A stretch of DNA of 64,000 nt from Rhodobacterales bacterium. Lineage in GTDB: Bacteria > Pseudomonadota > Alphaproteobacteria > Rhodobacterales > Rhodobacteraceae. Numbering within the stretch: the first letter of the stretch is position 1; the number at the start of each line of letters is the position of its first letter. Position numbers and translations under genes: made by a program. The stretch covers positions 27,796 through 91,795 of the forward strand of contig PDRW01000026.1 of assembly GCA_002746935.1 (NCBI GenBank), in the 5' to 3' direction. The notes beneath the pieces are model-generated. The model saw only the letters and a list, made by a program, of their open reading frames with translations. It was not told the origin of the DNA and did not search any database. Below are positions 3,001 to 63,809 of the stretch, in pieces.

Positions 3001-3938
3001 TGGCCATAGGCCGGGCCGGTGTAGTAGCTCACCATCGAGGTGGCATCGTCGGTGCCCTGGGTCACCAGCGCCACATCGCGGATATAGGTCGGCTGGCCGT
3101 GGCTCACGCCGATCATCAGGTTTTCGATGTCACGCGCATTGCGCAGGAAGGAGCCGGTGTAGAGCGTGAACGAGCTCGTGCCCGCCTCCACCATGCCGAC
3201 GCCGCGTTCCGAATTGGCGGCGTTGATGGTCTGGGCGATCTCGTCAAGGCCGATGCCGAAGCCTGCGAGACGTTCGGGGAAGACCTCGACCTTGATCGCA
3301 TCGGAACGCCCGCCAACCACGAAGCTCTGCGAGGTGTTGGGCACCTCCTTCAGCCGCTGCATCACGTCAAGCGACAGCGAGCGCAGCGCGCCTTCGTCGA
3401 CCGTGTGGCTCCACAGCGTCAGCGTCACCACCGGCACGTCGTCCACGCCCTTGGGCTTGATCAGCGGCTGGCTGACCCCGGGCGGGATCTTGTCGAGGTT
3501 GGACTGGATCTTGTCGTTAAGCTTGACCAGCGACGGGCCCATCTCCTCGCCGACCTCGAACTGCACGGTCACCATGGCGCCGTTGCGTTCGGAGGTCGAA
3601 TAGACATGCTCGACACCGGGGATCTCGCTCATCAGCCGCTCCAGCGGGTCGGTGGCGAGCGAGGCCACCTGTTCGGCGGAAATCCCGGGGTACTGGAACA
3701 TCACGTCCACCATCGGCACCGAGATCTGCGGATCTTCCTGCCGGGGGGTAACGACGATGCCCATCAGGCCGAGCGCGAAACACGCGATCAGCAGCAGCGG
3801 CGAAAGCGGCGAGTTGATGAAGGCTTTCGCAAGGCGGCCGGCCAGGCCGAGATCTTCGCCATGCCCGTTGCCATTTTCGCTGCCGTTCACGGTGGCACCA
3901 TTGCCGGTGCCGTTCTGTTTGGCGGTCTGATCGGTCAT
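1..3938 (-). CDS. RND-family efflux permease, 3' end beyond window
   Basis: Inner-membrane proton-driven pump of the AcrB/HME superfamily, acting with the adaptor encoded upstream. 1,312 codons are visible and the frame is still open at position 1. The protein begins with a short Gly/Asn-rich leader, then TM1, a periplasmic porter region, and the TM4 acidic pair in ILVDDAIVVVEN near residue 460. The second half repeats the fold and the last TM helix (TLLTLIVIPLGC) ends near residue 1090. Two oddities: a His/Glu/Gly loop near residues 308-325, and a cytoplasmic tail of more than 200 residues rich in Lys, Ala and Pro (KPKPAAKPK-type repeats) instead of ending soon after the last helix. The start ATG at 3938 follows GGAGC. 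Substrate cannot be told; the His loop hints at metals but is not proof. Confidence 0.93.
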   Translation of the reverse strand, partial: MTDQTAKQNGTGNGATVNGSENGNGHGEDLGLAGRLAKAFINSPLSPLLLIACFALGLMGIVVTPRQEDPQISVPMVDVMFQYPGISAEQVASLATDPLERLMSEIPGVEHVYSTSERNGAMVTVQFEVGEEMGPSLVKLNDKIQSNLDKIPPGVSQPLIKPKGVDDVPVVTLTLWSHTVDEGALRSLSLDVMQRLKEVPNTSQSFVVGGRSDAIKVEVFPERLAGFGIGLDEIAQTINAANSERGVGMVEAGTSSFTLYTGSFLRNARDIENLMIGVSHGQPTYIRDVALVTQGTDDATSMVSYYTGPAYGHHAEHGEAGEGGDHGEIELAPLGAPAVTIAVAKKSGSNGVSVANAVLASVERLKGSLIPDNVHVEITRNYGETANEKVNELIFKLFVVTGAVTLLIWLALGVRAAIVVLIVIPIVILMTVFSAWILGFTIDRVSLFALIFSIGILVDDAIVVVENIYRRWLEDGEVSEAVSVDAVREVGNPTILATFTVIAALLPMGFVRGMMGPYMAPIPALGSVAMLFSLFAAFLFTPWLAQRIRPSMASLEKSQESEHRQTLWLNRFFVKTLVPLIHKRVAGWSFLIGLVVVFFLSLFLFYTQSVTVKMLPKDNKPEFNVTINMPEGTPLPVTANVASRLSEKLMDIPEVVALQSYVGTASPFNFNGLVRHTYLRNRPWMADIQVEIGLKHHRDRSSEDLAVVVREMLTPLAREMGARIEVIEMPPGPPVLQTMVAEVYGPDAETRRQVARDIRDMFDAAEITVDADALMQDSYSSWRFVVDREKASRRGVSVETINRQLEMAMGGYILGDVKNDRAVEPTYIYLQMPLSLRGQFGRLGQLPVPSATGAMIPLTELGSFEEFRLDDPIFHKNLRAVEFVTADVTGALGAPIYAIFEIEDMLDGYTAPDGVRVETNYLGPPDVSMKSALEWTGEWTVTYETFRDMGLAYGVALLLIYVLVVWEFGNFTIPAIVMAPIPLTLIGIVPGHWMFGASFTATSMIGFIALAGIIVRNSILLVDFSLHAVKTGMRVQDAVIYSCQTRTRPIIITALALIAGSSVILSDPIFQGMAISLMFGGLVSTLLTLIVIPLGCVTWSKALLASIDGPVDPAAGQVPEMPKPQGPDDGPGGPTTGGGIARSLGKVSAAASGLVARVASGWARVRAPRAEVTAAGPAAEPAGESIAEALAAVEPAVARADAVVGEEPEARAEDAPTEAKSAAAAVQAKPAARPKARPAAKQAAEPVAKPKAPATKPKARPAAKPKPAASPVAKTKPAARPKPAKTPKAGPVAKPKPAAKPKAGPEAPAKAE

Positions 3939-4025
3939 GTCAGCTCCACGATCCTGCGTGTCTCACCCAGAACGTGCCCGCGCTCATTCGCATTCATACG
4001 GGGCGCCGCTCTGTTCTTTCGTTCT

Positions 4026-4300
4026 CACATGCCGGAAGGCGCAAACCGGGGCCGATTTGCGCGGCATGCTGAGTTGTGGTCGCATGCCGGAAAGCGCAAA
4101 ACCGGGGTCCACTTTTGCGCGGCATGCTGAGTTGTGGTCGCATGCCGGAAAGCGCAAAACCGGGGTCCACTTTTGCGCGGCATGCTGAGGGTCGTCGCAT
4201 GCCGAAAGGCGCAAAACCGGTTTCCACTTTTGCGCGGCATGCTGAGGGTCGTCGCATGCCGAAAGGCGCAAAACCGGTTTCCACTTTTGCGCGGCATGCT
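4026..4300. repeat. Five tandem copies of a palindromic ~57-bp repeat
   Basis: Units begin near 4026, 4081, 4139, 4196 and 4253, with a period of 55-58 bp. Each unit is an imperfect palindrome: GCATGCCG...GCGCAAAA, a centre of CCGGGGTCCAC or CCGGTTTCCAC, then TTTTGCGCGGCATGC. The last two units differ from the first three in the same positions (CCGGTTTCC, linker GAGGGTCGT), so duplication occurred in steps. The array fills the 363-bp gap between the adaptor and the pump gene. The core resembles a palindromic intergenic repeat I recall as common in alphaproteobacteria. It would form strong hairpins in the operon mRNA and could lower or stabilise expression of the pump relative to the adaptor. 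Confidence 0.9.
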
Positions 4301-4301
4301 T

Positions 4302-5462
4302 TTAATGCCCGGAAATCAGCGACGAGGGCGGCGACAGGATCACCGTTTCGCCGCCGGACAGGCCGGAGACCACCGAAATCGACCCGTCCGCAAGCGGATA
4401 GCCCACGCGCACGATGCGCAGAGACGGCACCCCCTGGTCGAGCACGAAGACGGCCGGAAGCGAGCCGCGCCAGATCAGCGCTTCGGCCGGCACCGAGGTC
4501 TGCCCCGAGGTCGGCACGGAGGCGTCCGGCACGGTCACTTCGGCATACATGCCGGGGCCGCCGGGGGTACCGATCGGCAGGTCGAACTTGACGGTGACGG
4601 TATGGCGCCTGGCGTCGGCCACCGGATAGATCTGCGCCACCCGCGCCTCCACCGGCCCGCCGCCCGAATCGAGCCGCGCCGGCACCAGCATGCCCTCGGC
4701 CAGCCCCGCCGCGAGCCGCACCGGCACATCGGCCTCGATGCGCAGATAGTCGATGAAGGCGAAGTCGATGATCGGCATCCCCGGCTGCACGGTGTCGCCC
4801 ACCTCCACATGCTTGCGCATGATGATGCCGTCGAACTCGGCGGTGGCCTGGAAATCCTTGAGCGTCGCGTCGATGGCGTCGAGATTGGCCTGGGCGGCAG
4901 CCAGCCCGCTGGTGGCGGTTTCAACGCCGATGCCCTGGGCATAGAGGTCGGCATGGCGCTCGACGCCGCTGTCCGACTGGCCCATCATCTCCGAGAACCC
5001 TTGCGTGAAGAACTGGTCGAAGGTGGCCGGAATCCCCATGCCCGGAACCCCGGTCACCGAGTTGACCCGCGGCGAATAGATTTCGCGCGAATATTGCATG
5101 TAGGAGTTGCGCAGCGCCGCTTCCGCCTGCCGGACCTGGCTTTCGGCCGCGCGGCGTTTGGCACGAAGGTCGGCGTCGTCGATCCGCACCAGCATTTCGC
5201 CGGTCTTGGCGCGGTGGCCCTCGGAACCGGCAAGATAGGTGATCCGCCCCGGCACCTGCGCAGCAACGGTGATCTCCTTGTAGGGAATGACCGTACCGCC
5301 GACGATGGCCGAGCCGCCGACCTGCGACACCATGACCGGGGCCGTACGATACCCCTCCGCCAAGGCGGACACCGGATTGTCCTGCGACAGCGCCGCCTGA
5401 CCGGCGATGACCGCCAGAGCGAAGGCCGCAAGAACGGGTGCGATTCCAGCAGTTTTCTGCAT
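4302..5462 (-). CDS. HlyD/AcrA-type periplasmic adaptor subunit
   Basis: 386-residue membrane-fusion protein that should couple the RND pump downstream to an outer-membrane channel. It has an N-terminal Sec signal ending about residue 26 (AALSQ), a lipoyl-like half (VAAQVPGRITYLAGSEG), an alpha-hairpin segment from about residue 100 to 190, the second lipoyl half (ATAEFDGIIMRKHVEVGDTV) and a beta-barrel domain (VTVKFDLPIG). The hairpin carries an unusual Gly/Met/Phe-rich stretch (VPGMGIPATFDQFF). It shares strand and order with the pump, so one operon is inferred, although the repeat array separates them. No outer-membrane factor gene lies in the window. Confidence 0.92.
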   Translation of the reverse strand: MQKTAGIAPVLAAFALAVIAGQAALSQDNPVSALAEGYRTAPVMVSQVGGSAIVGGTVIPYKEITVAAQVPGRITYLAGSEGHRAKTGEMLVRIDDADLRAKRRAAESQVRQAEAALRNSYMQYSREIYSPRVNSVTGVPGMGIPATFDQFFTQGFSEMMGQSDSGVERHADLYAQGIGVETATSGLAAAQANLDAIDATLKDFQATAEFDGIIMRKHVEVGDTVQPGMPIIDFAFIDYLRIEADVPVRLAAGLAEGMLVPARLDSGGGPVEARVAQIYPVADARRHTVTVKFDLPIGTPGGPGMYAEVTVPDASVPTSGQTSVPAEALIWRGSLPAVFVLDQGVPSLRIVRVGYPLADGSISVVSGLSGGETVILSPPSSLISGH

Positions 5463-5632
5463 CCCTACCCCTTTGTTTCAAGTCCCGACCGGATTGGCCC
5501 GATCCGCCTCCCCGTGCCTGCGCGAAGTATATTTGGCACCTGCGGGATTTCACTACGGTTTTTCAGGCATCCACACAACATGCTATCTGAATGGTTGCAA
5601 GAGGCAGGGCACCGGGCCGGGCCGGCAGGCGG

Positions 5633-6088
5633 TCAGAACGGCGAAAACCACCCCATCGGGTTGGCCATGACATTGCCGACCCGGCTCATGTCGCGGGTCA
5701 TCCGGCTCATGTTGGCGTTGACCCCATAGATGTTGCCGACCATCGCATTGACTCCCTTGTCCATGCTCTCGATGTCGCCCGACACGGCCGCGAGCGCGCC
5801 GTCCATGGAGCCGATCGCGCCCGTCATGGTCTCCATCGTCCCGACCATGGTCTGCATCGCCAGCGTCATCTCGCCCATGTTGACGGTGAGCTTGTCCATG
5901 TTGGCCGAAATGCGGTCCATGTCGTCCACCATTTCCGCAAAATGCTGGTTCATCTCCACCATTGTGCCGGTGAGGGTATAGACCTGCCGGGCCATGCCGT
6001 AGAGCACCCAGGACAACAGAGCCATGACCACCACGATCAGAAAGGTGGTGATGACGATGAATCCACCGCTGGTTGCGCGCCGGTACAT
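5633..6088 (-). CDS. Membrane-anchored Met-rich coiled-coil protein
   Basis: 151-residue protein of unknown function. The start at 6088 is supported by GGAGG seven bases upstream; a longer in-frame start at 6184 has no such signal. After a short basic N-terminus (MYRRATSGG) comes one TM helix (VITTFLIVVVMALLSWVLY, about residues 12-30). The rest is a periodic helix with Met or Ile at regular heptad-like spacing (MDDMDRI, MDKLTVNMGEMTLAMQTM, METMTGAIGSMDGAL), predicted as a coiled coil facing the periplasm. It precedes the adaptor and pump genes on the same strand with a 170-bp gap and may be an accessory part of that efflux system; this is inference from position. Confidence 0.75.
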   Translation of the reverse strand: MYRRATSGGFIVITTFLIVVVMALLSWVLYGMARQVYTLTGTMVEMNQHFAEMVDDMDRISANMDKLTVNMGEMTLAMQTMVGTMETMTGAIGSMDGALAAVSGDIESMDKGVNAMVGNIYGVNANMSRMTRDMSRVGNVMANPMGWFSPF

Positions 6089-6459
6089 GCTGCCTCCGTT
6101 CCGATCCCATGGCCGCCCGCGCCGGTTACGCCGAAGCGCCTTGCCTGCCGGGCGGGCGGGCTTTGGGCCGCAGACATATATCAATGAAAGAATTTGTTCC
6201 AGCTAAAAAGGGTCGCATGGGGTCCGGGCTGGCAGCGGGCCCGCGCCGGAAAACGCGGAGACAGCGCGGACCCGCTGCATCATGAGTTTTTTTGCCAGGA
6301 AAACGGGTGCGCAGGGTTGGGCAGGAGATCTCCGGGCAGGGCCGGCGCATCCGGCCCCCAGGACCGGCACCGGCCGGCGGTGGAGGCATGGCGACGCGCT
6401 GGCAGGGAGCCTGCATGGCCCGCCGGGTCTGCACCGTTCAACGCCGGATCCCGCTGCTC
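6089..6459. other. 371-bp intergenic region
   Basis: No gene seen. The part next to the membrane protein (6170-6215) is locally AT-rich on the minus strand (AAATTCTTTC, GATATATG) and is the likely promoter region of the efflux operon. The part next to the reductase gene holds a GC-rich stretch without a clear terminator. Confidence 0.4.
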
Positions 6460-7269
6460 TCAGTCGACGAAAGCCTTCTCGACCACATATTCCGCCGGCT
6501 CCGAATTCGCCCCCTCGCGGAGATCCCAGCCTTCGAGGATCTCCTTGATGTCAAGGTTGAAGGCCAGCGAGCCGCAGACCATGCCACGATCCTCCGCGGG
6601 GTCGAGCCTGTCGATGCCGAGGCCAAGGTCGCGGAACACCTTGCCGGAGATCAGATTGTCGGTCACCCGGCCCTTGTGCGGAAAGTCGTCGCGGGTGGTG
6701 GTCGGGTAGTAGACCAGCTTGCCATCGACCGCATCGCCGATCAGCGGATCGTCTTTCAGGCCCTCCACCAGACGGCGACCGTATTCCAGCTCCGGCGCGA
6801 TCCGGCAGGTGTGCATCATGATCACCTGATCGTAACGCTCGTAGGTATCCGGGTCGCGCATCAGCGAGGCGAAGGGGGCGATACCGGTGCCGGTGGCGAA
6901 GAACCACAGCCGTTTGCCGGGCAGCAGCGCGTCAAGCACCAGCGTGCCGACGGGCTTCGGCCGCAGGATGATCTGGTCGCCCACCCTGATATGCTGAAGC
7001 CGCGAGGTGAGCGGGCCGTTGGGCACCTTGATCGAGTAGAATTCCAGCTCCTCGTCCCAGGCCGGCGAGGCGATGGAATAGGCCCGCAACAGCGGTTTGC
7101 CGCGGTCTTCGTCCATCAGGCCGATCATCACGAATTCGCCCGAGCGGAACCGCAGCGATTGCGGCCGGGTGCAGCGGAAGCGGAACAGACGGTCGGTATA
7201 ATGCTCGACCTCGGTGACGATCTGGGCATCGGGCAGGGTGGGCACGGGTCTGGGCTTGGTTTCGGTCAC
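6460..7269 (-). CDS. fpr: Ferredoxin/flavodoxin-NADP+ reductase
   Basis: 269-residue FAD enzyme that exchanges electrons between NADPH and ferredoxin or flavodoxin in the cytoplasm. It shows the FAD-binding RAYSIAS motif, the NADPH-binding GTGIAPF motif, the MVCGS segment near the C-terminus, and a C-terminal VEKAFVD typical of bacterial subclass FPRs. No in-frame ATG precedes the domain; GTG at 7269 (VTETKPRP) matches the family's MTETK-type start, and another GTG three codons upstream (7278) is an alternative. It is monocistronic, with the ribosomal protein genes behind it in the same orientation. A perfect 7-bp inverted repeat lies about 70 bp upstream. Confidence 0.95.
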   Translation of the reverse strand: MTETKPRPVPTLPDAQIVTEVEHYTDRLFRFRCTRPQSLRFRSGEFVMIGLMDEDRGKPLLRAYSIASPAWDEELEFYSIKVPNGPLTSRLQHIRVGDQIILRPKPVGTLVLDALLPGKRLWFFATGTGIAPFASLMRDPDTYERYDQVIMMHTCRIAPELEYGRRLVEGLKDDPLIGDAVDGKLVYYPTTTRDDFPHKGRVTDNLISGKVFRDLGLGIDRLDPAEDRGMVCGSLAFNLDIKEILEGWDLREGANSEPAEYVVEKAFVD

Positions 7270-53416: not shown

Positions 53417-54139
53417 TCAGGCCGAAAGCAGCGCCAGCGCCTCGCCCAGATCCATCGCCCCGTCGTATAGCGCGCGGCCGGAGATGGCGCCGTTGAGCGG
53501 GGCGCCGCAGGTCATGAGGGCACGCAGATCGTCGAGCGAGGCGATGCCGCCGGAGGCGATCACCGGGATCGTCACCTCGTGGGCCAGCGCCGCGGTGGTC
53601 TCCACATTGGGCCCGGCCATGGCCCCGTCGCGGTTGATGTCGGTATAGACGATCGCGGCCACACCCGCGTCTTCGAAACGATGCGCCAGATCGGTGATTT
53701 GCACGTCGGTTTCCTCGGCCCAGCCCTTGGTCGCCACCCGCCCGTCGCGCGCGTCGATACCGACCGCGATCTGACCGGGGAAGGCGCGCGCCGCTTCGCG
53801 CACCAGCGCCGGGTTTTCCACCGCCGCAGTGCCCAGAATGATCCGTTCCAGCCCCCTGGACAGCCAGCGCTCGACGGTGGCCATGTCGCGGATGCCGCCG
53901 CCAAGCTGGGCAGGCACCCTGACCGCAGCCAGAATGGCCTCGACCGCCGCGGCATTGACCGGCTCCCCCGCAAAGGCACCGTTGAGATCGACGAGATGGA
54001 TCCATTCGCAGCCCGCCGCCTCGAAGGCAAGCGCCTGGGCGGCGGGGTCGTCGTTGAACACCGTCGCCGCGTCCATCTCGCCGCGCAGCAGGCGCACGCA
54101 CTGGCCGTCTTTCAGATCAATGGCGGGGTAGAGGATCAT
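53417..54139 (-). CDS. hisA: HisA isomerase
   Basis: 240-residue TIM barrel, 1-(5-phosphoribosyl)-5-[(5-phosphoribosylamino)methylideneamino] imidazole-4-carboxamide isomerase, fourth step of histidine synthesis. Catalytic Asp in [17 protein letters not shown], phosphate loop [16 protein letters not shown], second Asp in [14 protein letters not shown], and [16 protein letters not shown] 54139. hisF normally follows in this order but is absent here. Confidence 0.97.
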
Positions 54140-54605
54140 CGCTGGCATCCTTTTGGCTTTGGTGTTTGTCGCACGGGGAGGGATGGGCGTCCAGTGGGAG
54201 ATGCGAAGGGCGCGGTTGGGCAACTGGGCGGCTGGCCGCGCAGGCAAGGGCAGGGTTTCCGGCGGCTGGGGGGTGGCGGAAGGACCGTGGACAAGCGCGG
54301 GCCGGTCGGTTCAGCCCGAAACAGGCTTGCGAAGCGCGGGGTTCGGGCCTTGCCGGGGCAGCCTGCCCGGCCAGCCCCCGACCCGCCACCAGCCTCTGCG
54401 GTGCCCTGGCGTGGCAAGCCCGGGGCCAGGATTGCCGCGCCGGGCCTGACGCCCGCCCCGGCATGGCGCCCCGGGCGTTGTCCGCCTGTGCGAGGCCCGC
54501 CAGTGTGATGCCCGCCTGTGCGCGGCACAGGCCCCCCGCCCGCCGCAGGCGGCGCATCAGCGCAAACGACCCGCCGCAGGCGGCACGTCAGCAAACCCGC
54601 CCCGC
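54140..54605. other. 466-bp GC-rich gap between hisH and hisA
   Basis: No credible gene on either strand. It contains two identical palindromes CCGCCGCAGGCGGC (54540-54553 and 54571-54584), a repeated CGCCTGTGCG, and several other short dyads. Such a long gap is unusual inside a his operon and could carry a promoter or attenuator for hisA. Confidence 0.5.
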
Positions 54606-55244
54606 TCAGGGCTTCCAGCGCAGGAAATTCGCGATCATCTTCAGCCCGGCGGCCTGGCTCTTTTCCGGGTGGAACTGGGTGCCGAAAATGGTGTCGCGCC
54701 CGACAATGGCAGTGATGTCGCCGGCATATTCCGCATGGGCCAGCCGGTGCGCATCCTCCGCCACCCGGAAATGGTAGGAATGGACGAAATAGGCGTGGTC
54801 GCCGGTGGCAATGCCCGCGAGCACCGGGTGGGGATGGTCGATCACGAGGTCGTTCCAGCCCATATGCGGCACCTTGAGGCTCTTGTCGGCCGGGTCGATA
54901 TGCACCACCTCGCCGCCGATCCAGCCGAAACCCGGGGTCTCGCCGCGCTCCAGCCCACGGCTCGCCAGCATCTGCATGCCGATGCAGATGCCGAAGAACG
55001 GCACCCCGCGCCGCATCACCGCTTCGTCGAGCGCTTCGAACAGGCCGGAATGGTCGAACAGCGCCCGCCGGCAGGCCGGGAAGGCCCCGTCGCCCGGCAG
55101 CACCACCCGGTCGGCCCGCGCCACCGCCTCCGGCTCGCCCGAGACCAGCACCTCGCCCGCCCCGGTCTCCTCCGCCATCCGCTGGAAGGCCTTCTCGGCC
55201 GAATGGAGATTGCCGCTTTCGTAGTCGATCAGAACGGTCAGCAT
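54606..55244 (-). CDS. hisH: Imidazole glycerol phosphate synthase, glutaminase subunit
   Basis: 212-residue class I amidotransferase that hands ammonia to HisF. Nucleophile Cys in FFGICIGMQMLASRG near residue 85, His/Glu in FGTQFHPEKSQ near the end, and LPGDGAFPACRRALFD. Start ATG 55244 gives MLTVLIDYESGN. It lies 9 bp behind hisB. Its partner hisF is not in the window. Confidence 0.98.
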   Translation of the reverse strand: MLTVLIDYESGNLHSAEKAFQRMAEETGAGEVLVSGEPEAVARADRVVLPGDGAFPACRRALFDHSGLFEALDEAVMRRGVPFFGICIGMQMLASRGLERGETPGFGWIGGEVVHIDPADKSLKVPHMGWNDLVIDHPHPVLAGIATGDHAYFVHSYHFRVAEDAHRLAHAEYAGDITAIVGRDTIFGTQFHPEKSQAAGLKMIANFLRWKP

Positions 55245-55253
55245 GGGGTCTCC

Positions 55254-55841
55254 TCAGAGGGCGCCCTTGGTAGAGGGGATGGCGTCGGCCTTGCGCGGGT
55301 CGGTCTCGACCGCATCGCGCAGCGCCCGCGCCACCGCCTTGAAGGCGGCCTCGGCGATGTGATGGGCGTTGAACCCGTGCAGACGGTCCACATGCAGGGT
55401 GATGCCGCCGTTGCCCGCAAAGGCGGTGAAGAACTCGCGCACCAGTTCGGTGTCGAAGGTGCCGATCTTGGGGCTCGGAAAATCGACGTTCCACACCAGA
55501 AAGGCACGGCCCGAGAGATCGAGCGCGGCGCGCACCTGGGCCTCATCCATCGGCAGATGGCATTCGCCATAGCGCCGGATGCCGCGCTTGTCGCCCAGCG
55601 CCGCCTTCAACGCCTGACCGAGCGCGATGCCGGTGTCTTCGACGGTGTGATGGTCGTCGATATGCAGATCGCCCACCGCGCGCACCTTCATGTCGATCAG
55701 CGCATGGCGGGCAAGCTGGTCGAGCATGTGGTCGAAAAAGCCCACCCCGGTCCGGTTGTCATAGCTGCCGGTGCCGTCGAGGTCGATTTCGACGGTGATC
55801 TCGGTTTCCGCCGTCTTCCGGCTGATCCTGGCCTGGCGCAT
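55254..55841 (-). CDS. hisB: Imidazoleglycerol-phosphate dehydratase
   Basis: 195-residue Mn-dependent enzyme of histidine synthesis. The two metal motifs are [18 protein letters not shown] and [18 protein letters not shown], plus [16 protein letters not shown]. This is the monofunctional form without the phosphatase domain. First gene of hisB-hisH-hisA; ATG 55841 follows GGAGAA. Confidence 0.98.
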
Positions 55842-56377
55842 GGTGTTCTCCCCGGGTCTGGTGGCACCCCGGGGTTATAGGCAGGCGGAGGGTAGGTGAA
55901 AAGAGGGAGGGGGTGCGCGCAGCCTCGTGGCTCTTGCGAAAGACCCGGCCTGCCCCGGCGCGCGCTCCACACCCGGAGTTTCGGCAGCCGCCGCATGGAA
56001 CGGGATCGCGAACACGAACGCGCGCGCGCCGCACCCGGGGTTGTGGCAGCCGATTCGCCAACCGGTCTGCCCGCTTTCCGTTACCATTCGGTTAATCCCC
56101 GGCACAAAACCGCCAACGCCGCACGACTGTCGCCCAGGCGTGACCGGCTATTGTCCGGGTCCAGTCAACAGTTCCAGCCGCTCACCGGGGGTTGTTCCCG
56201 AACCCGAATATATACGCCCCGCGCGGGCCTTGCGTGTTCCCAATACGCGGCTTTCGCGCTATCCCGTCGAACGTGGGCTCCGGACGACCGGAGCAGTCCG
56301 GGGGGCTGGCGTGGCGTGTCGCACGCGACATCGTAACTTGCTGGTCGCACTAATTCTTGTTGCCACAGGAGGGTACC
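55842..56377. other. 536-bp divergent region, hisB and RTX gene
   Basis: Promoter space for hisB (minus) and the RTX gene (plus). CATTCGGTTAATCCC (56086-56100) and AATATATACG (56208-56217) are the AT-richest spots and the best promoter candidates for the RTX gene. Two related strings (CACCCGG...GGCAGCCG) occur near 55970 and 56030. No gene seen. Confidence 0.4.
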
Positions 56378-57373
56378 ATGGCAGTCCTTAACGCTTATTT
56401 TGCGTTCAACTTCGATAATCTGGACTGGAACTTCTATATCCAGAACTTCAACCGCGACTGGCTTGCCGAAGACTGGGAAGATATGTCGGACGACCGTTAT
56501 TCGGTCTTCTCTACCAACGATGACCGCGCCTTCGTCCAGCAGGGCACCGGCTTCGCCACCGACGACATGGGCCAGATGACGATCGGCACCACCGAATACA
56601 TCAGCGAATGGGTCTGGGAGGACGATCAGCCAGCCGAACTCAGCTACCGCTTCAGCGACATCAGCGTCTCCGCCGCGGCGGTCAATGACGCGCTTCGCAG
56701 CGAAAACCCCGCGGACGAGCGCGGCCTGCTGGCCGGCCTGCTGTCGGGCGACGACGAATTCAACCTGTCGGCCGGAGCCGACCTCGCGCGCGGCTTTGCC
56801 GGTGCGGACACCATGCGCGGCGGCAAGGGCGCCGATGTGCTCTATGGCAACCAGGGGGCGGATTTCCTCTCCGGCGGCGGCAACCGGGATACGCTCTATG
56901 GCGGCAATGGCCGTGACACGGTCTATGGCGGCAAGGGCAACGACAAGCTTTACGGCGGCAACGGCAACGATACGCTTTACGGCGGCACCCACAATGACAA
57001 GCTCTACGGCAACCAGGGCCGGGACGCCCTCCGTGGCCAGAACGGCAACGACATGCTGTTCGGCGGCAAGGGCCACGACCGGCTGCACGGCGGCAAGGGC
57101 AACGACACGCTCACCGGCGGCAGGGGCCACGATACCTTCGTGTTCAAATCCGGCGACGACGCCGAAACCGTGAAAGATTTCACGCTCGCCGGAAACCACA
57201 GCGACAAGGTGGACCTCAGCGGCATGGCGTCAATCACCGGCTGGAACGACCTCAAGGGCAATCACATGACCCAGAACGGTGCCGACGTGGTGATCGACGC
57301 GGGCAATGGCGACGTGATGACGCTGGAGAACGTGACCCTGGCCGATCTCGCGCAGGATCACTTCATCTTCTGA
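56378..57373 (+). CDS. Small RTX calcium-binding protein
   Basis: 331 residues. The N-terminal ~130 residues are acidic and aromatic (FNFDNLDWNFYIQNFNRDWL, YISEWVWEDDQPAEL) with no known domain. Then RTX nonapeptides from about residue 140 to 255 (GKGADVLYGNQGADFLSGG, GKGNDKLYGGNGNDTLYGG), with many Lys and Tyr compared with the large RTX protein. The end (DVMTLENVTLADLAQDHFIF) is the hydrophobic type I secretion signal style. ATG 56378 follows AGGAGGG. No transporter genes nearby. Confidence 0.9.
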   Translation: MAVLNAYFAFNFDNLDWNFYIQNFNRDWLAEDWEDMSDDRYSVFSTNDDRAFVQQGTGFATDDMGQMTIGTTEYISEWVWEDDQPAELSYRFSDISVSAAAVNDALRSENPADERGLLAGLLSGDDEFNLSAGADLARGFAGADTMRGGKGADVLYGNQGADFLSGGGNRDTLYGGNGRDTVYGGKGNDKLYGGNGNDTLYGGTHNDKLYGNQGRDALRGQNGNDMLFGGKGHDRLHGGKGNDTLTGGRGHDTFVFKSGDDAETVKDFTLAGNHSDKVDLSGMASITGWNDLKGNHMTQNGADVVIDAGNGDVMTLENVTLADLAQDHFIF

Positions 57374-57551: not shown

Positions 57552-58283
57552 TCAGAACGACAGTTTCTTGAAGATCCGTTCCGGCACCAGCTTGATGATG
57601 GTCATGATCAGCCACCAGAAGCCGGGGGCGTAGATCACGTTGCGCTTTTTCTTCACCGCGCGCAGGATGCGTTTCGCAACCGCCTGCGGTGTGGCGACGA
57701 GGAACATCCCCTCGACCCCCCAGGTCATCGAGGTGTCGACGAACCCGGGCTTCACCGTCACCACATGGGCGCCGGACCGCCCCAGACGGTTGCGCAGGCC
57801 CGAGAGATAGGTGGCGAAACCCGCCTTGGCGGAGCCGTAGACATAGTTGGAAAACCGCCCGCGGTCGCCGGCGACGGAGGTGACCCCGACCACATTGCCG
57901 CCGCGCGCTTCGATGAGCGGTGCAAGCTCATGCAGAAACCTTGCGGGGCCGGTGTAATTGGCCGCCGCCACCCGGTCGATCAGCGCGGGATCGGCGTCGA
58001 TCTCGGCCTGACCCGGCATCCAGCCGACGAAAACCGCCGCGCTCACCGGGCCTTCGGTCTTGCCCATGGCATCGATAACGGGGCCGAAGCTCGCCGCATC
58101 TTCCGCATCGAAGAACAGCGCCTGCGACGCCGGCGCGCCGCGGGCCTTCAGATCGGCCGCCAGGGCCTGCAAATCCGCCATGTCGCGGCCCGCGACCAGC
58201 ACCGCTTCACCGGCCTCGGCCAGGTCGCGGGCAAAGGCGCGCGCCATCGACGAGGTTGCGCCAAGAATGATCCAGTTGCTCAT
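57552..58283 (-). CDS. DprE2-like short-chain dehydrogenase
   Basis: 243-residue SDR. NAD(P)-binding IILGATSSMARAFARDLAEA, catalytic Ser in GVTSVAGDRGR, Tyr/Lys in NYVYGSAKAG. The C-terminal PGFWWLIMTIIKLVPERIF is a membrane-near helix. It resembles DprE2, which reduces decaprenylphosphoryl-2-keto-ribose to the arabinose form. Its ATG overlaps the stop of the DprE1-like gene by four bases, so the two are coupled, matching the two-step epimerase in mycobacteria. Other SDR roles remain possible. Confidence 0.85.
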   Translation of the reverse strand: MSNWIILGATSSMARAFARDLAEAGEAVLVAGRDMADLQALAADLKARGAPASQALFFDAEDAASFGPVIDAMGKTEGPVSAAVFVGWMPGQAEIDADPALIDRVAAANYTGPARFLHELAPLIEARGGNVVGVTSVAGDRGRFSNYVYGSAKAGFATYLSGLRNRLGRSGAHVVTVKPGFVDTSMTWGVEGMFLVATPQAVAKRILRAVKKKRNVIYAPGFWWLIMTIIKLVPERIFKKLSF

Positions 58284-59602
58284 TGAACCGCCTCCCGAAG
58301 TCCGAGCCTGCGCACGATGTCGGTGATCAGCGCCCCTTTGGGGTCGGCCTTGCGGGCCTCATCCGCCCATGCCTCCCATTCGGGATACATCGCCTTGATC
58401 CTGTCGCCCGTCGCCAGCGCATCCTTGCCGAGGTAGAGCCGCCCCTTGGCCTCCAGCGTCATCGCCTCAAGCTCGGCGATCAGCGCCTCGGCCCTGTCAC
58501 GGGCGGGAAAGTCGATGGCGAGCGTATAGCCCTCCATCGGGAAACTCAGCATGCCCGCACGCCCCGGCCCCATGCGCTTGATCACCGCCAGCGGGCTCGC
58601 CAGCCCCGAATGCGCGATCTTCTGAACGATCTCCCTGAGGACGGAGGCATTGTTCAGCGGCACCACGCATTGGAACTGATGAAACCCGCGTTTGCCATAG
58701 AGCCGGTACCACTCATGAAGCTTGTCGAGCGGAAACACATGCCGGGCGATCGGCATCACATGGGTGCGGCCGCGCCCTGGCACCTTGCGCCAGTAGAGCG
58801 CGTTGAACACCTTCACCGTGGGGCCGGAGAGCGCAAAGCCCGGCAGGTTGAAGGGCACCGTCACCGCCGGAAGCCCAGGCGACCTTTCCGGACCGCCGGT
58901 CAGTTCCGCCTCTTCGAGAATACCCCGGCCAAGCGCCGCCCCGGTGGCGGTGCCGTCGATCCAGCCGACGTTGTAGCGGTATTGCGACCCGTCGAGCAGC
59001 GCCAGGAAACTGTCGAAATCCTCGACCCTCGTTTCCTTCACCCGCATGCCGTTGCCCGGAGTCGGGATCATCTGCAACTTCGCCGAGACGATCACCCCGG
59101 TCTGGCCGATACCGCCCATGGTGGCGCGAAACAGCGCCGCGTCGCTCTCGGGCGTCACCTCGACCACGGCCCCGCCCGGCTGCACCAGCGTCACCGCCAG
59201 CACATGCTGGCCGAAGGAGCCGAGCACATGGTGGTTCTTGCCGTGGATGTCATGGGCGATGGCGCCGCCGACGGTCGGAAAGCCGGTGCCCGGCACCACC
59301 GCGGGCACCCAGCCGCGCGGGGCGAACAGCCGGATCAGATCGCCGAGCTGCACCCCGGCTTCAAGCTCGATCACCCCGGTTTCGCCGTCGAAAGCCAGGA
59401 TCTTGTCCATCCGGCTCATGTCGATGGCCCGCCCGCCATCGTTCAGCGGGGAGTCGTTATAGCTTCGGAGCATCCCGAAGGCGGGCGCGGGGCTGTCGTG
59501 CATCAACCTGTCGAGCCCGGCGCGGCGTTCGGGGCGCGCGACCTGCCCCCGGGCCTTGTGAACCTGCGCCCAACCGGCGTAGTCGGTGTTTTTCCAGAGC
59601 AT
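58280..59602 (-). CDS. DprE1-like FAD-dependent oxidoreductase
   Basis: 440 residues of the VAO/FAD-binding-4 family. FAD domain: VELEAGVQLGDLIRLFAP-like block, GTGFPTVGGAIAHDIHGKNH near residue 105, GGIGQTGVIVSAKL. Substrate domain: FHQFQCVVPL, AVIKRMGPGRAGMLSFPMEG, YTLAIDFPA, KGRLYLGKDAL, MYPEWEAW and the final DIVRRLGL. These blocks align from memory with mycobacterial DprE1, which oxidises decaprenylphosphoryl-ribose at C2. It starts 1 bp behind the flippase-like gene. Confidence 0.88.
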   Translation of the reverse strand: MLWKNTDYAGWAQVHKARGQVARPERRAGLDRLMHDSPAPAFGMLRSYNDSPLNDGGRAIDMSRMDKILAFDGETGVIELEAGVQLGDLIRLFAPRGWVPAVVPGTGFPTVGGAIAHDIHGKNHHVLGSFGQHVLAVTLVQPGGAVVEVTPESDAALFRATMGGIGQTGVIVSAKLQMIPTPGNGMRVKETRVEDFDSFLALLDGSQYRYNVGWIDGTATGAALGRGILEEAELTGGPERSPGLPAVTVPFNLPGFALSGPTVKVFNALYWRKVPGRGRTHVMPIARHVFPLDKLHEWYRLYGKRGFHQFQCVVPLNNASVLREIVQKIAHSGLASPLAVIKRMGPGRAGMLSFPMEGYTLAIDFPARDRAEALIAELEAMTLEAKGRLYLGKDALATGDRIKAMYPEWEAWADEARKADPKGALITDIVRRLGLREAVQ

Positions 59603-59603
59603 G

Positions 59604-60596
59604 TTACTTTCTCAGTGAGTGGCGTTCGGCAAAGGGGAAGACCGCAAGGCCGATCAGGATTGCAAACCAGAGCGTGGTGACGCGGATGATCGCGGTGGCG
59701 GGCACCGAGGCTTCGAGCGGCACGCCTTCGAGGGCAAGCAGCGCCACCATTGCCGCTTCCGCGCCCCCTACCCCGCCCGGCGCCCCGGTGAGCCCCCCGG
59801 CAAGGTTGGCAAAGACGAATATCGCCACCGCCTTGGCAAGGCCGATGTCGGCGCCCATCCAGCCGAGCAGCAGATGAAAGGCATAGCCCTCCGCAAACCA
59901 GCCGACCACGCCAAGAATGCCCGCAAGCCCGATCGCAACCGGCGAGGAAAACGCCGACAACGCCCGCGCCGCACGGCGGATCTTCGCGAAAAACCTCGGG
60001 AACCTGCCGGTCGTGCGGTGGCCCCATATGGCAATGGCACCGAGCAGCTTCGGCCGGGTGGAAAGCACCGCGCCGGCCAGCGCCAGCAGCGCGACCGGCA
60101 GACCAAAGGCGATGCCGGTGGCCGAAAAGGCGAGGCCGATGCCCAGCAGAAGGCCCAGCGCCGCAAGGTCGGAGGCGCGGTCGACCAGCACCAGCGGCGC
60201 GGTGCGCTCGAAACGCCAGCCGGTCTTGCGCCCGATCCAGCGCATCCGCACCAGTTCGCCCAGCCGCCCCGGGGTGACGCTCATGGCAAAGCCGCCGAGA
60301 AAATGGAGGAACGACACCGCATAGCCGAGCGGAAGCCCGAGATGGGCGGAAAACATATGCCAGCGCAGGCCACGAAGCAGGTAGTTGGTCAGCGACAGGG
60401 CCAGCAGAACGAGCACCTGCCATGGGCGCAGACGCGAAATCTGCGCCAGCGTCTCTTCCCAGCCGGTGGCCGCGGCAAGGCCCGCAAGACCGCCAAAGAC
60501 CATGACCACAAGGCCAGGCACCACCAGCCTGTCGCGCAGGCGGCGTTTCGGGCCCATGGGGGCTGGTGGAATCGGATCGGTGCTCGACATCGCCAT
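59604..60596 (-). CDS. Lysylphosphatidylglycerol synthase TM-region (UPF0104) protein
   Basis: 330 residues with about eight TM helices, only the membrane domain of the family (no transferase domain). LLALSLTNYLLRGLRWHMF, GGFAMSVTPGRLGELVRMRW and NLAGGLTGAPGGVGGAEAAM are characteristic. Such stand-alone proteins are proposed lipid-linked-sugar flippases or membrane-lipid handlers. It is 1 bp ahead of the DprE1-like gene, so flipping of a polyprenyl-phosphoryl pentose is a reasonable idea. ATG 60596. Confidence 0.88.
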   Translation of the reverse strand: MAMSSTDPIPPAPMGPKRRLRDRLVVPGLVVMVFGGLAGLAAATGWEETLAQISRLRPWQVLVLLALSLTNYLLRGLRWHMFSAHLGLPLGYAVSFLHFLGGFAMSVTPGRLGELVRMRWIGRKTGWRFERTAPLVLVDRASDLAALGLLLGIGLAFSATGIAFGLPVALLALAGAVLSTRPKLLGAIAIWGHRTTGRFPRFFAKIRRAARALSAFSSPVAIGLAGILGVVGWFAEGYAFHLLLGWMGADIGLAKAVAIFVFANLAGGLTGAPGGVGGAEAAMVALLALEGVPLEASVPATAIIRVTTLWFAILIGLAVFPFAERHSLRK

Positions 60597-60675
60597 TTTT
60601 GCCGGATTACTGGTCTATTGCGGCGAGATTATGAAATTGTTGCACAAAGACGAACAGCTTGCAGAAAAGGCGCAT

Positions 60676-60706
60676 GGGCTGGCCGGGGCTGGCCGGGGCT
60701 GGCCGC
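60676..60706. repeat. GGGGCTGGCC direct repeat in operon gap
   Basis: Three 10-bp units in the 130-bp gap between the HAD-UbiA gene and the flippase-like gene. No function visible. Confidence 0.7.
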
Positions 60707-60726
60707 GTCTGACCGGGCGGCGCCCC

Positions 60727-62157
60727 TCACCCCAGCCAGGCCCGCCACAGCCCGGCCGCCTGAAACATGATCGCCAGCGCGATCAGCAAAATGCCGATGC
60801 CGCGCTTGTCGCGCATGGCGAAAACGATCGGGTCATAATCCTGCCGCCCCTGCCAGCCCATGCGGATCATCCGCAACAGCCACCAGAAGATCGGCCCCAG
60901 CGCCACCCACAGCAGCCAGCGCGTGGGGTAGAGCGAGACGGCCTGATCGGTGAAGGAATAGCCCAAAAAGGCGAGCAGCGCGCCGACCATGCCAATCACC
61001 GCGACATTGAGCAGATCGCCCCGGTCGGCCCGTCCGTAGCCGCGCCCCGGCAATCGCGCATCGGAGGGCGCGAGCGTCAGTTCGGTGATTCGCTTCACCG
61101 AGCCAAGCGCGATGAACACCGGGTAGATGAACACCAGCAGATAGCCGGAAATCCCGATGCCTGAGGCCAGCGCCCCCGCCACCACCCGGATGGTGTAGAG
61201 CGCCGCCAGCGTGGCGATATCGATCCAGCGCAGCCGTTTCAGCCGCAGCGAATAGCCCAGCGAAAGTGTCATGTAGAGCGCAAGCACGCCGAAGAAGCCC
61301 CAGCCGATCAGCGCCGCGATGCCAAGCGCCGCGGCCCCTGCCCCCAGCCCTGCCGCCATGCCGACGCCGATCGGCACCCGGCCGGAGGCGAAGGGACGGC
61401 GGCATTTGGTGGCGTGCAGACGGTCGGCTTCGAGGTCGAGAAGGTCGTTGACCACGTAGATCGCCGAGGCCCCGAGCGAAAACGCCAGCGCGCCGAGAAG
61501 CGCCATCAGCCAGGGCCAGGGCAGAAACACATGGCCTGCGAGCAGTGGCACGAACAGCAACGCGTTCTTGACCCATTGGTGCGGGCGCAGGGCCTTGACG
61601 ATCCCGGCCACGCTCCAGCCGCCCGCGATCCGGGTGACCGGCTTGCCCGCGGCCTCCAGCGCATCCGCCGAAGCGGTATCGTTCACCACCAGCGCCCGGT
61701 CGGCATGGACCCATATCTTGCGGTCCACCGCCTCGTTTCCGGCATAGTCGAACCCACCCTCGCCGAACGCCGCGACGAGCGCCGCCGCCTTGGCCTCGCC
61801 CTTGAGGTTCACACCCGGCGCCGAGGCAAAGACCCGCTCCGACAGCCCGTGGCCGGCGGCAAGCCGTTCCACCAGCCCCCGGTCCGAGGCCGAGGCCAGC
61901 ACCACCTCGCGGCCCGCGGCCCGCGCCGCCTCCACCTCCGCCAGAACCGCGCCGTTGACCGGCAGAAGATCGGTGCGGATCGCGCCGATCCGGGCCAGCT
62001 CCGCCTTCAGCGCCGGACGGTCGCCGATCAGCGTGACCGCCGCCCTGAGCGTTGCCAGCGGGTCGCGCCCGAGCCCGGCCCAGAAGCATTCGAGCAGCAT
62101 GTCGGTTTTCAGAAAGGTGCCGTCCACATCGAGCACCAGCGGTTTCAGCTCAGCCAT
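60727..62157 (-). CDS. HAD phosphatase-UbiA prenyltransferase fusion
   Basis: 476 residues. Residues about 1-190 form a HAD-type domain (LVLDVDGTFLKTDMLLECFW with the DxDGT motif, VVLASASDRGL, LKGEAKAAAL, LVVNDTASADAL). Residues 195-476 are a nine-helix UbiA prenyltransferase: LRPHQWVKNALLF, the Asp-rich VVNDLLDLEADRLHATKCRR, and the second YGRADRGD-type motif. This type matches decaprenyl-phosphate phosphoribosyltransferase (Rv3806c-like), which joins PRPP to polyprenyl phosphate; the HAD part could remove the 5-phosphate. First gene of the four-gene block. Confidence 0.9.
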   Translation of the reverse strand: MAELKPLVLDVDGTFLKTDMLLECFWAGLGRDPLATLRAAVTLIGDRPALKAELARIGAIRTDLLPVNGAVLAEVEAARAAGREVVLASASDRGLVERLAAGHGLSERVFASAPGVNLKGEAKAAALVAAFGEGGFDYAGNEAVDRKIWVHADRALVVNDTASADALEAAGKPVTRIAGGWSVAGIVKALRPHQWVKNALLFVPLLAGHVFLPWPWLMALLGALAFSLGASAIYVVNDLLDLEADRLHATKCRRPFASGRVPIGVGMAAGLGAGAAALGIAALIGWGFFGVLALYMTLSLGYSLRLKRLRWIDIATLAALYTIRVVAGALASGIGISGYLLVFIYPVFIALGSVKRITELTLAPSDARLPGRGYGRADRGDLLNVAVIGMVGALLAFLGYSFTDQAVSLYPTRWLLWVALGPIFWWLLRMIRMGWQGRQDYDPIVFAMRDKRGIGILLIALAIMFQAAGLWRAWLG

Positions 62158-62205: not shown

Positions 62206-63237
62206 CTACCCGGAGGTCACGAAAACGCAGCCGTCGGTGATCAGCTCCGGCCAGGTGGAGCACAGCCCCCGCGCCACCCGCCAGGCGGCGAGCACCTTGG
62301 GCACATAGGCCCGCGTCTCGGCAAAGGGCGGCACGCCGCCATGTTTGGCAACCGCCCCTTCGCCGGCATTGTAGCCCGCCAGCGCCAGGATCGGATCGCT
62401 GTCGAACTGCCTGAGCAGCCAGTCGAGATAGGCCACACCGCCCTTGATGTTCTGCACCGGATCGGACGCATCCTTGACCCCGAACCGCTCGGCGGTCGCC
62501 GGAATGAGCTGCATCAGCCCCTGCGCCCCCTTGTGGCTTTCGGCCTTGGCCATGCCGCTGCTTTCCACCGAAATCAGCGCCAGAACCAGCGCCGGCGACA
62601 CCTTGGTGCCCACGGTGGCGCCGAGAATGTCGCGCCCATAGGCATCGGCGATCAGCTTGAGCGACTGAAGCCGCGGCTCGGGCAACTCCCGGCGCGTGTC
62701 CAGCGCCCGCAGAGCGCGGGCGACATTGGCGGGGCCGGCGGCGGAGGTTTCCGACGATACCGCCTCCCAGAACCATTCCCATCCATTGGCGGCAACCGTT
62801 CCGGCGGCGGCGGTGGCGGAAGCCTCCACCACCGGGGCTTCGGTGCTGCGCTTGCGCGGCTTCGCGTTGGGCCGCGCGGCGATGAAGGCCGCCTGGGCTT
62901 CCGGGTCTATCTGCACCAGCGCCCCCGGCTTTTGCCCCGGAGGGGGCGCGGGGGAAAAGTGGAAGGTGAAATCGGGATAGGCCACGGGGGTTGTGGTTTC
63001 GGTTCCGGTTTCGGGAGCCCCGGTTTCCGCGGCCGGCGCCGGGACCGCCGTTTCCACGGTTTCCGAAGGGACCGTTTCCGAAGGGACCGTTTCCGAAGGG
63101 ACTGCGGCTTCTGCGGTGGCCGCGATTTCTGCGGCACCAACCGGGGCCATCCGGCCCGTCGGGGCCGCGATTTCCGCAAACGCAGGTAATCCTGCGGCGG
63201 CGCAGGCGCATAGCGCCAGAATCGAACTGCTGCGCAT
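62206..63237 (-). CDS. Slt-type lytic transglycosylase
   Basis: 343-residue exported enzyme. Signal peptide (SSILALCACAAAGLPAFA), a linker with three SETVP units (15-bp DNA repeats at about 63057-63102), then the Slt domain from about residue 200: catalytic Glu in LALISVESSGMA near 224, AQGLMQLIPATAERFGV, ALAGYNAGEGAVAKHGG and FAETRAYVPKVLAAW. ATG 63237 gives MRSSSILALC. 48 bp ahead of the HAD-UbiA gene in the same direction, so co-transcription is possible. Confidence 0.93.
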   Translation of the reverse strand: MRSSSILALCACAAAGLPAFAEIAAPTGRMAPVGAAEIAATAEAAVPSETVPSETVPSETVETAVPAPAAETGAPETGTETTTPVAYPDFTFHFSPAPPPGQKPGALVQIDPEAQAAFIAARPNAKPRKRSTEAPVVEASATAAAGTVAANGWEWFWEAVSSETSAAGPANVARALRALDTRRELPEPRLQSLKLIADAYGRDILGATVGTKVSPALVLALISVESSGMAKAESHKGAQGLMQLIPATAERFGVKDASDPVQNIKGGVAYLDWLLRQFDSDPILALAGYNAGEGAVAKHGGVPPFAETRAYVPKVLAAWRVARGLCSTWPELITDGCVFVTSG

Positions 63238-63608
63238 CGGGTCTTGTCTCTGCCTCTTGCCCCCCGGGATGCGAGGCCCCGGGGTTGGTTTATTTATCCT
63301 TAATATCACAAATTTCACCGAAGAGGACCAGTTTTTCAGCCAGCCCAATTCCCCAGGCCGCCGGCGCCTTGGGCAATCGGTATTTCTTGTAGGGTCGATT
63401 CGATATTAATTCGTTTTGTTTCAACCGGTTACCAGAAATGTGTTAATATTGTGGCACCTCTCAAAAAACGTACGGAACTGGCCCAACTCTCGCCCCAATC
63501 GCCGTGTGTATTTGCACCATGCCAAGCAGGACGGCGGATCGGTTTCACAGGCGGTTCGGGTTTCTGTTGGCTCTGAGCAAAACGAGCTTAGCTTTCGGAG
63601 GGAAAAAC
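63238..63608. other. 371-bp AT-richer divergent region
   Basis: Between the transglycosylase (minus) and the pilin genes (plus). Markedly AT-rich around 63290-63460; TAATAT at 63444-63449 is a promoter candidate, which would leave a ~150-base leader before the first pilin. AACCGGTT at 63423-63430 is a small palindrome. No gene seen. Confidence 0.45.
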
Positions 63609-63809
63609 ATGAAACTGTTCAAGCTTGCTAAATCCTTTGTACGTGATGAAGACGGCGCCGTGACCGTTGACTGGGTCGTGCTGACCGCCGCCATCGTCGG
63701 CCTCGGCCTCGCCGTTGGCATGGCCGTGTCCGGTGCCACGGTCAATCTGGCCGGCAAGATTTCGGACGAACTCAACAGCATGAACCCGGCCACCTATCTG
63801 CAGCCGTGA
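63609..63809 (+). CDS. Flp-like (type IVb) pilin, copy 1
   Basis: 66 residues. Basic leader MKLFKLAKSFVRDEDG ending in Gly, then a hydrophobic helix (WVVLTAAIVGLGLAVGMAVS). This is the layout of Flp prepilins, cut after Gly by a TadV-type peptidase. Counting from the cut, position 5 is Asp and 6 is Trp, where Flp pilins have Glu-Tyr. The C-terminus is short (NSMNPATYLQP). SD GGAGGG precedes the ATG. No tad genes are inside the window. Confidence 0.85.
   Translation: MKLFKLAKSFVRDEDGAVTVDWVVLTAAIVGLGLAVGMAVSGATVNLAGKISDELNSMNPATYLQP

Follow-up and report, generated by a model that had tools for sequence, protein, structure and literature searches.

A stretch of 64,000 nucleotides from the genome of a Rhodobacterales bacterium (hereafter the window) contains a four-gene cassette that probably constitutes the donor half of a pilus-arabinosylation system. 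The cassette encodes (i) a fusion of a HAD phosphatase domain with a UbiA-type phosphoribosyltransferase (HAD-UbiA), (ii) a UPF0104 membrane protein, (iii) a DprE1-like oxidase and (iv) a DprE2-like reductase. It is situated close to the start of a Tad pilus locus, whose far end carries the gene of a multi-helix membrane protein, referred to here as the orphan (Table 1). It is probable that the orphan transfers arabinofuranose (Araf), the likely acceptor being the Flp pilin or a different Tad component in the periplasm. The gene identities, catalytic motifs, neighbourhoods and presence/absence coupling were computed, and from these we infer the substrate, the sugar, its flipping, the transferase activity and the acceptor.

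According to the proposed mechanism, the HAD-UbiA fusion would perform both the phosphoribosyltransferase and the phosphoribose phosphatase step of donor synthesis, and DprE1 together with DprE2 would epimerise C2 to yield polyprenyl-phosphoryl-D-arabinofuranose. The UPF0104 protein would then flip the lipid-linked arabinofuranose to the periplasm, where the orphan, as a GT-C-like enzyme, would attach the sugar; the most likely acceptors are Flp and the other periplasmic components of the Tad system. The predicted products of the cassette are best read as the makers of a polyprenyl-phosphoryl-arabinofuranose donor, because their closest solved relatives are the mycobacterial DPPR synthase, DprE1 and DprE2, and the catalytic residues are kept. 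To our knowledge, D-arabinofuranose is rare outside actinobacteria.

Table 1. Predicted genes of the cassette and of the adjoining Tad locus (positions refer to the window, except for the orphan, which lies on contig C73 of the same genome)
Feature	Position	Strand	Size	Basis or remark
DprE2-like short-chain reductase (2-keto-pentose reductase of the epimerase pair)	57552..58283	-	243 aa	PDB, NCBIfam
DprE1-like FAD oxidase (polyprenyl-phosphoryl-ribose 2'-oxidase)	58280..59602	-	440 aa	PDB, NCBIfam, residues
UPF0104 / LPG_synthase_TM membrane protein, proposed lipid-linked-pentose flippase	59604..60596	-	330 aa	Pfam, NCBIfam
HAD-UbiA fusion: polyprenyl-phosphate phosphoribosyltransferase with N-terminal phosphoribose phosphatase domain	60727..62157	-	476 aa	PRK08238, PDB
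SLT lytic transglycosylase, neighbour bordering the Tad locus, not claimed for the sugar pathway	62206..63348	-		Pfam SLT, E 2.4e-25
Flp-type prepilin, first gene of the Tad pilus locus, proposed acceptor	63609..63809	+		cleavage motif, pilins of relatives
Orphan membrane protein	C73:11262-12896	opposite to TadV, after it	544 aa	far end of the Tad operon

A preliminary description of this DNA had recognised four adjacent minus-strand genes, and their ORFs and domain families were confirmed: Pfam assigned SDR, FAD_binding_4 (plus a sub-threshold ALO match), LPG_synthase_TM and UbiA (plus a sub-threshold N-terminal HAD match) to the four proteins. The 1- to 4-base junctions reported there for the UPF0104, DprE1 and DprE2 genes also hold, with a 4-base overlap of DprE2 and DprE1 and a single base between DprE1 and UPF0104; a gap of 130 bases separates UPF0104 from HAD-UbiA. 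The counts across loci and genomes given below are based on tblastn or profiles. Among 80 related loci of the family, DprE1 is directly followed by DprE2 in every case and immediately preceded by UPF0104 in 71, which argues that the cassette is not a chance array. HAD-UbiA was detected in 46 of these loci and is convergent to the other three genes in all 46, so the one-strand order of the window is unusual; the compression into one block, which had been presented as special, loses its weight, since the relatives carry UbiA in convergent orientation.

Tad genes are found in 43 of the 48 related loci whose sequence extends 8 kb or more beyond DprE2. In the window, an ORF located 260 bases from the SLT gene encodes a small prepilin with the cleavage-site motif DEDG/AVTVDWVVLTAAIVGL (the slash marks the cleavage point) and a 50-aa mature form. 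It has no Pfam match and was named Flp because of this motif and of the homologous pilins found between SLT and CpaB in relatives. The window ends where its contig (C30) ends, and contig C73 of the same genome begins with CpaB, followed by CpaC, CpaE, CpaF, TadB, TadC, two TadD-like genes and TadV. Pfam confirmed RcpC, secretin, AAA (TadZ-like), T2SSE, TadB/TadC, TPR and prepilin peptidase domains on C73 (the first of the TadD-like genes was scanned). Judging from gene order and contig edges, C30 and C73 presumably represent one locus cut by the assembly, and across their junction the complete Tad/Flp series (Flp, RcpC/CpaB, secretin, TadZ/CpaE, TadA/CpaF, TadB, TadC, TadD and TadV) is present in order.

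The C-termini of the Flp pilins were also compared. Their Ser/Thr content differs weakly between DprE1-positive and DprE1-negative pilins (p 0.026). A Ser/Thr-aromatic C-terminus is found in 60 of 95 unique DprE1-positive pilins and in 3 of 33 negative ones (Flp of L003-L082 and L160-L166); this tail pattern was picked post hoc, with no correction for kinship, and is not counted as evidence. The pilin of the window ends in ...NPATYLQP.

The glycosyltransferase nature of the orphan is argued from its topology and company, because the protein has no match in Pfam, NCBIfam or PDB. The residues E-G-D-x-x-H and H-x-D-F-x-T-P-x-G are invariant in 8 sequences (its own included) and directly follow the first membrane helix, a region that we take to be the position of the catalytic acid in GT-C enzymes. 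The orphan profile matches two consecutive genes placed directly after dprE2 in a plasmid cassette of R. leguminosarum WSM1325 (E 1.5e-19 and 1.4e-13), and hhalign supports the first of these as a homologue (2.8e-14). The analysis covered 45 further DprE1 loci, 5 plasmid-borne (L113-L117) and 40 from the class-level search (L120-L159), a few of them with DprE1 alone; an orphan homologue was found in only one of them (L113), and there were no tad genes within the stretches examined. The orphan is a candidate GT-C-like arabinofuranosyltransferase of a so-far unnamed family.

Other candidates for the transferase were considered. A kinship of the orphan with known glycosyltransferases was not supported, as hhalign comparison with one GT87 and two PMT_2 proteins revealed no relation. 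The preliminary description had left both transferase and acceptor open; a candidate for the former has now been found outside the window, while the search of the 84% complete genome for PMT_2 or GT87 proteins gave no match (the Emb/Aft models themselves were not searched). In genome G650 a second multi-helix protein, glycosyltransferase-like by eye, is encoded near the tad end (L163:17876-19447). It has no Pfam match, a weak match to the LA_3751/LA_3752 putative glycosyltransferase model, and no relation to the orphan by profile. In other families of the same class, too, genes next to Dpr cassettes encode multi-helix proteins without Pfam or NCBIfam matches (L125:6754-8523, L131:7197-8780, L142:6960-8453 and L140:12657-14432); it is possible that they represent further transferase families.

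The distribution of the genes was analyzed in 295 genomes of the family, one per genus. DprE1 was found (E 1e-60) in 105 of them, 75 with a window-type protein (>390 bits) and 30 with a divergent one (<313 bits), and the orphan (E 1e-10) in 85. Window-type DprE1 and the orphan co-occur in 74 genomes; 1 has DprE1 only, 11 have the orphan only and 209 have neither. Thus, all but one of the 75 genomes with window-type DprE1 also carry the orphan, against 11 of the remaining 220 (Fisher p 2e-56, calculated on genomes that are related). The single genome with DprE1 only (G504) is 76% complete. Five of the 30 divergent-DprE1 genomes carry the orphan and account for 5 of the 11 "orphan only" cases, and another of these (G452) contains a DprE1 fragment below the first threshold. 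DprE1 and the orphan lie on one contig in 51 of the 74 genomes, and in 44 of these the distance between them is 12.4-16.3 kb, the span of the tad genes. Phage carriage of DprE1 found no support, as there was no match in the phage collection.

As a control, 20 genomes were chosen from the 190 that lack a DprE1 match, among those with a good SLT match. All 20 have SLT-Flp-CpaB, and 19 of them the full tad order; the remaining one shows CpaB only, with the orphan site out of view. The gene that usually follows the orphan sits directly after TadV in 18 of the 19 controls with full tad. Neither the orphan nor the cassette genes were found in any of the 20 control genomes, none of which belongs to the 85 orphan-positive ones. 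A tree of CpaC and CpaE from 65 loci (46 with and 19 without DprE1; two rows stem from one genome) requires at least five changes of state. We also inspected 20 regions from 19 genomes, most of them taken because DprE1 is distant, on another contig (a selection, not all such genomes), divergent or absent. They include eight of the 11 "orphan only" genomes, two regions of G440, and G485 and G499, in which the genes are close. In 16 of these regions, the orphan lies beside tad genes.

Several observations weigh against the proposed role in pilus arabinosylation. Besides the orphan's lack of database matches, these are the following: (i) the genome itself is 84% complete and its assembly is split at the Tad locus; (ii) five of the 48 loci with sufficient room (L021, L024, L047, L053 and L059) have no tad genes, and UPF0104 is missing from 6 of the 80 related loci despite room; (iii) G403, G484, G495 (a short match), G604 and G646 have an orphan match and no DprE1 at 1e-12; (iv) the orphan is not beside tad in 4 of the 20 selected regions (L228, L229, on a 5.8-kb contig, L230, the second G440 copy, and L232); (v) G499 retains DprE1, DprE2 and the orphan with only TadD and TadV between them (at this place; tad elsewhere in G499 was not searched); and (vi) no HAD-UbiA was found at 1e-6 in 7 of the 75 window-type genomes (G461, G499, G533, G540, G542, G598 and G650), in a search that had no positive genome in it. 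A PF01040 search recovered the fusion in three controls and other UbiA members in the seven genomes, among which a distant DPPR synthase is possible. These seven genomes carry both DprE1 and the orphan. Finally, the tad locus of the control genomes occurs without cassette and orphan, and inherited gene order could therefore mimic a functional tie to tad.

This last point also speaks for the strongest alternative, which we nevertheless consider unlikely: the same donor and the same orphan transferase would act on a surface glycan (lipopolysaccharide or exopolysaccharide), the tad adjacency being an ancestral accident. The published prototype of a three-component pentofuranose system decorates an O antigen (PMC11127046). 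No tad genes lie near the Rhizobium cassette that contains the orphan homologues, the SLT-tad locus persists whether or not the module is there, and G499 keeps the module though most of tad is gone at that place. An accident of descent is, however, less easily reconciled with the finding that the cassette and the orphan mostly flank tad on opposite sides and are lost together while tad remains, or with the five genomes in which a divergent DprE1 lies elsewhere and the orphan is still at tad in 5/5. A role in pilus arabinosylation is considered more probable.

Among the donor enzymes, the oxidase of the window has DprE1 structures as its best PDB matches (E ~1e-72, aligned over residues 39-435; next family 5e-10). 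It combines a FAD-binding fold with the equivalents of Y60, H132 and K418 of Mtb DprE1, which are conserved in 81 of 81 sequences (the 80 related loci and the window), and each of the 81 has Ala where Mtb DprE1 has C387. For the SDR, the best PDB match is decaprenylphosphoryl-2-keto-beta-D-erythro-pentose reductase (DprE2; E 6.7e-23; next SDR 2e-14), and the YGSxKAG motif is conserved. The UbiA domain of the fusion is closest to DPPR synthase 8j8j (E 5.6e-25). Its NDxxDxxxDRxH motif, which includes the NDxxDxxxD of phosphoribosyltransferases of the UbiA family, is kept in 66/66 aligned fusions. In the HAD part, the nucleophile Asp of loop I is present in 62/66 and the Asp of loop IV in 65/66; both occur in the window, where the Pfam HAD match falls just under the cut-off. 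An earlier loop IV position is N in 45/66 (window included) and D in 15/66. The HAD-UbiA architecture has been enzymatically shown to make polyprenyl-phosphoryl-ribose in Citrobacter youngae (PMC11127046), a precedent that supports the possible phosphatase of the preliminary description.

The Rv3806c-, DprE1- and DprE2-like assignments made there thus agree with the best solved structures, and its proposed comparison with family profiles succeeded in part. With 490 bits, the fusion exceeds the PRK08238 cut-off of 351, the sole curated equivalog cut-off passed among the three pathway enzymes, while the strong matches of the other two remain below theirs. The oxidase scores 375.5 bits with the NCBIfam DprE1 model (NF053785; cut-off 500, passed by none of the 385 genomes of the class searched) and the SDR 160.8 bits with the DprE2 model (NF053786; cut-off 250). 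The SDR scores higher with PRK07102 (264.9 bits, just below the cut-off of 267). Matches to the DprE1 model with E <1e-45 occurred in a minority of the 385 genomes in this class-level search, most of the 278 reported matches being weak FAD-domain ones.

These sub-cut-off scores are compatible with a lipid-linked pentose other than D-arabinose, e.g. a ribose end product or another epimer, and Citrobacter O2 makes xylofuranose via a different epimerase (PMC11127046). This is improbable, as both halves of the C2 epimerase are adjacent in every related locus with their catalytic residues kept, and DprE1/E2 homologues accompany Araf glycans in a published survey (PMC11127046). It is highly improbable that the pair has nothing to do with lipid-linked pentose and consists of a generic FAD oxidase and a generic SDR acting in a lactone or alditol pathway: the broad SDR and FAD_binding_4 domains match many families, but the mycobacterial pair is the closest among solved relatives by about 60 (DprE1) and 8 (DprE2) orders of magnitude in E-value, a PRK08238 match stands alongside DprE1 in 98 of 105 genomes (116/295 at 1e-60, 18 of them without DprE1), and the best matches were not the unrelated alditol oxidases and generic SDRs that the preliminary description had named as fatal to its proposal.

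Two further features of the donor genes were observed. Several divergent DprE1 matches contain one internal TGA (e.g. G536, G581, G673, G526, G425 and G564). The genome of the window has a second PPPRS-like UbiA stretch (L239, G000:C72:66000-80000; frame 3674-7138, an open frame of 1154 aa) that scores 383 bits against PRK08238; the match spans model positions 189-481 and leaves out the HAD part.

The UPF0104 protein of the window matches PF03706 (E 8e-46) and the flippase-like TIGR00374. Among the 45 further DprE1 loci, the slot directly 5' of DprE1 is occupied by UPF0104 in six (L117, L128, L129, L130, L134 and L138) and by GtrA in ten (L113-L116, L120, L124, L125, L131, L142 and L159); elsewhere in the cassette, UPF0104 occurs in L144 and GtrA in L154, and the other 27 loci contain neither gene. 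The two were never found together in these 45 loci, and GtrA is absent from all 80 related loci of the family. Because they share the slot and never co-occur, UPF0104 looks like a replacement of GtrA, the presumed flippase, which supports the possible flippase of the preliminary description and would assign flipping to UPF0104.

The presence of arabinose-type genes in a Gram-negative bacterium is no surprise, as it has precedents in Pseudomonas pilins, Citrobacter O antigens and rhizobial Nod factors. Cassettes of this kind in Gram-negatives and the phosphatase-UbiA fusion have been published (PMC11127046); what is new is the candidate destination of the sugar, the Tad pilus. In Pseudomonas paraeruginosa, D-Araf glycan genes (PSPA7_6245-6251) are present in the genome and TfpW is encoded beside the pilin gene; D-Araf added by TfpW to type IVa pilins is linked to phage resistance (PMC12369383, PMC11841053). 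That system differs from the one proposed here in its pilin (type IVa instead of Tad/Flp) and in its separate phosphatase (PMC11127046). The three-component pentofuranose system of Citrobacter youngae O1/O2 (ORF15 PPPRS-PRP, ORF14 and ORF12 GT136) shares with the window the HAD phosphatase-UbiA fusion, enzymatically shown there, and its final step is catalyzed by a GT-C, as would be the case here (PMC11127046). It has a MATE/EmrE-like flippase and an O-antigen acceptor, and no DprE1/E2 is described in O1 or O2 (PMC11127046). Of the components listed by Kelly et al., the MATE/EmrE-type flippase was not found within the cassette, which has UPF0104 instead, and the candidate counterpart of the GT-C is the orphan, a multi-helix protein with no Pfam, NCBIfam or PDB match.

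Nod-factor arabinosylation by the rhizobial noeCNHOP genes employs orthologues of the DPA pathway and a dedicated transferase, NoeP, and its acceptor is a lipo-chitooligosaccharide, unlike the pilin proposed here (PMC5080398). Mycobacterial DPA synthesis (Rv3806c, Rv3807c, DprE1 and DprE2, with Emb/Aft transferases) involves a homologous synthase and epimerase pair; it differs in having Rv3807c where the window has a fused HAD phosphatase, and in C387 of DprE1, which is Ala in the window. The plasmid cassettes of Rhizobium, Ruegeria, Salipiger and Azospirillum (HAD-UbiA, GtrA, DprE1, DprE2) are like that of the window in donor logic and order. They contain GtrA in place of UPF0104, with polysaccharide-type or orphan membrane genes nearby and no tad genes within ~9 kb. 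As for Tad pili, RcpC has been implicated in Flp pilin glycosylation (PMC12307814). A study of Rhodobacterales tad genes (PMC8383342) contains no UbiA, prenyltransferase, synteny, flanking or transglycosylase terms, its sole "glyco" being glycolysis. Among the matches listed, the open-licence literature gave, by title or abstract start, no account of a Tad/Flp pilin arabinosylation system; nor did lipid names combined with Rhodobacter names, among the matches listed.

Next to the cassette, an ORF at 56357-57373 (+) encodes an RTX-type protein with calcium-binding nonapeptide repeats (Pfam HemolysinCabind, 7 stretches), of which a weak homologue, located at a distance, occurs in only 1 of the 80 related loci. 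Downstream, at 53417-55841 (-), there are hisA-, hisH- and hisB-like genes, named by reading only; HisB- and HisH-like homologues are also found near the cassette in L004 and L006.

In its widest form, the proposal is about evenly balanced: Tad-pilus arabinosylation may be widespread in the Rhodobacteraceae, with a mycobacterial-type D-Araf donor, UPF0104 replacing GtrA, an unnamed glycosyltransferase family at the tad end, and D-Araf on Flp, perhaps at the Ser/Thr-aromatic C-terminus. If this is true, approximately a quarter of the sampled genera (75 of the 295 genomes) would coat an attachment pilus with D-Araf, and this would matter both for the attachment to surfaces and for infection by phages. 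A family of transferases and flippases would become open to study in harmless strains, and the orphan and, in this setting, UPF0104 would gain a testable function.

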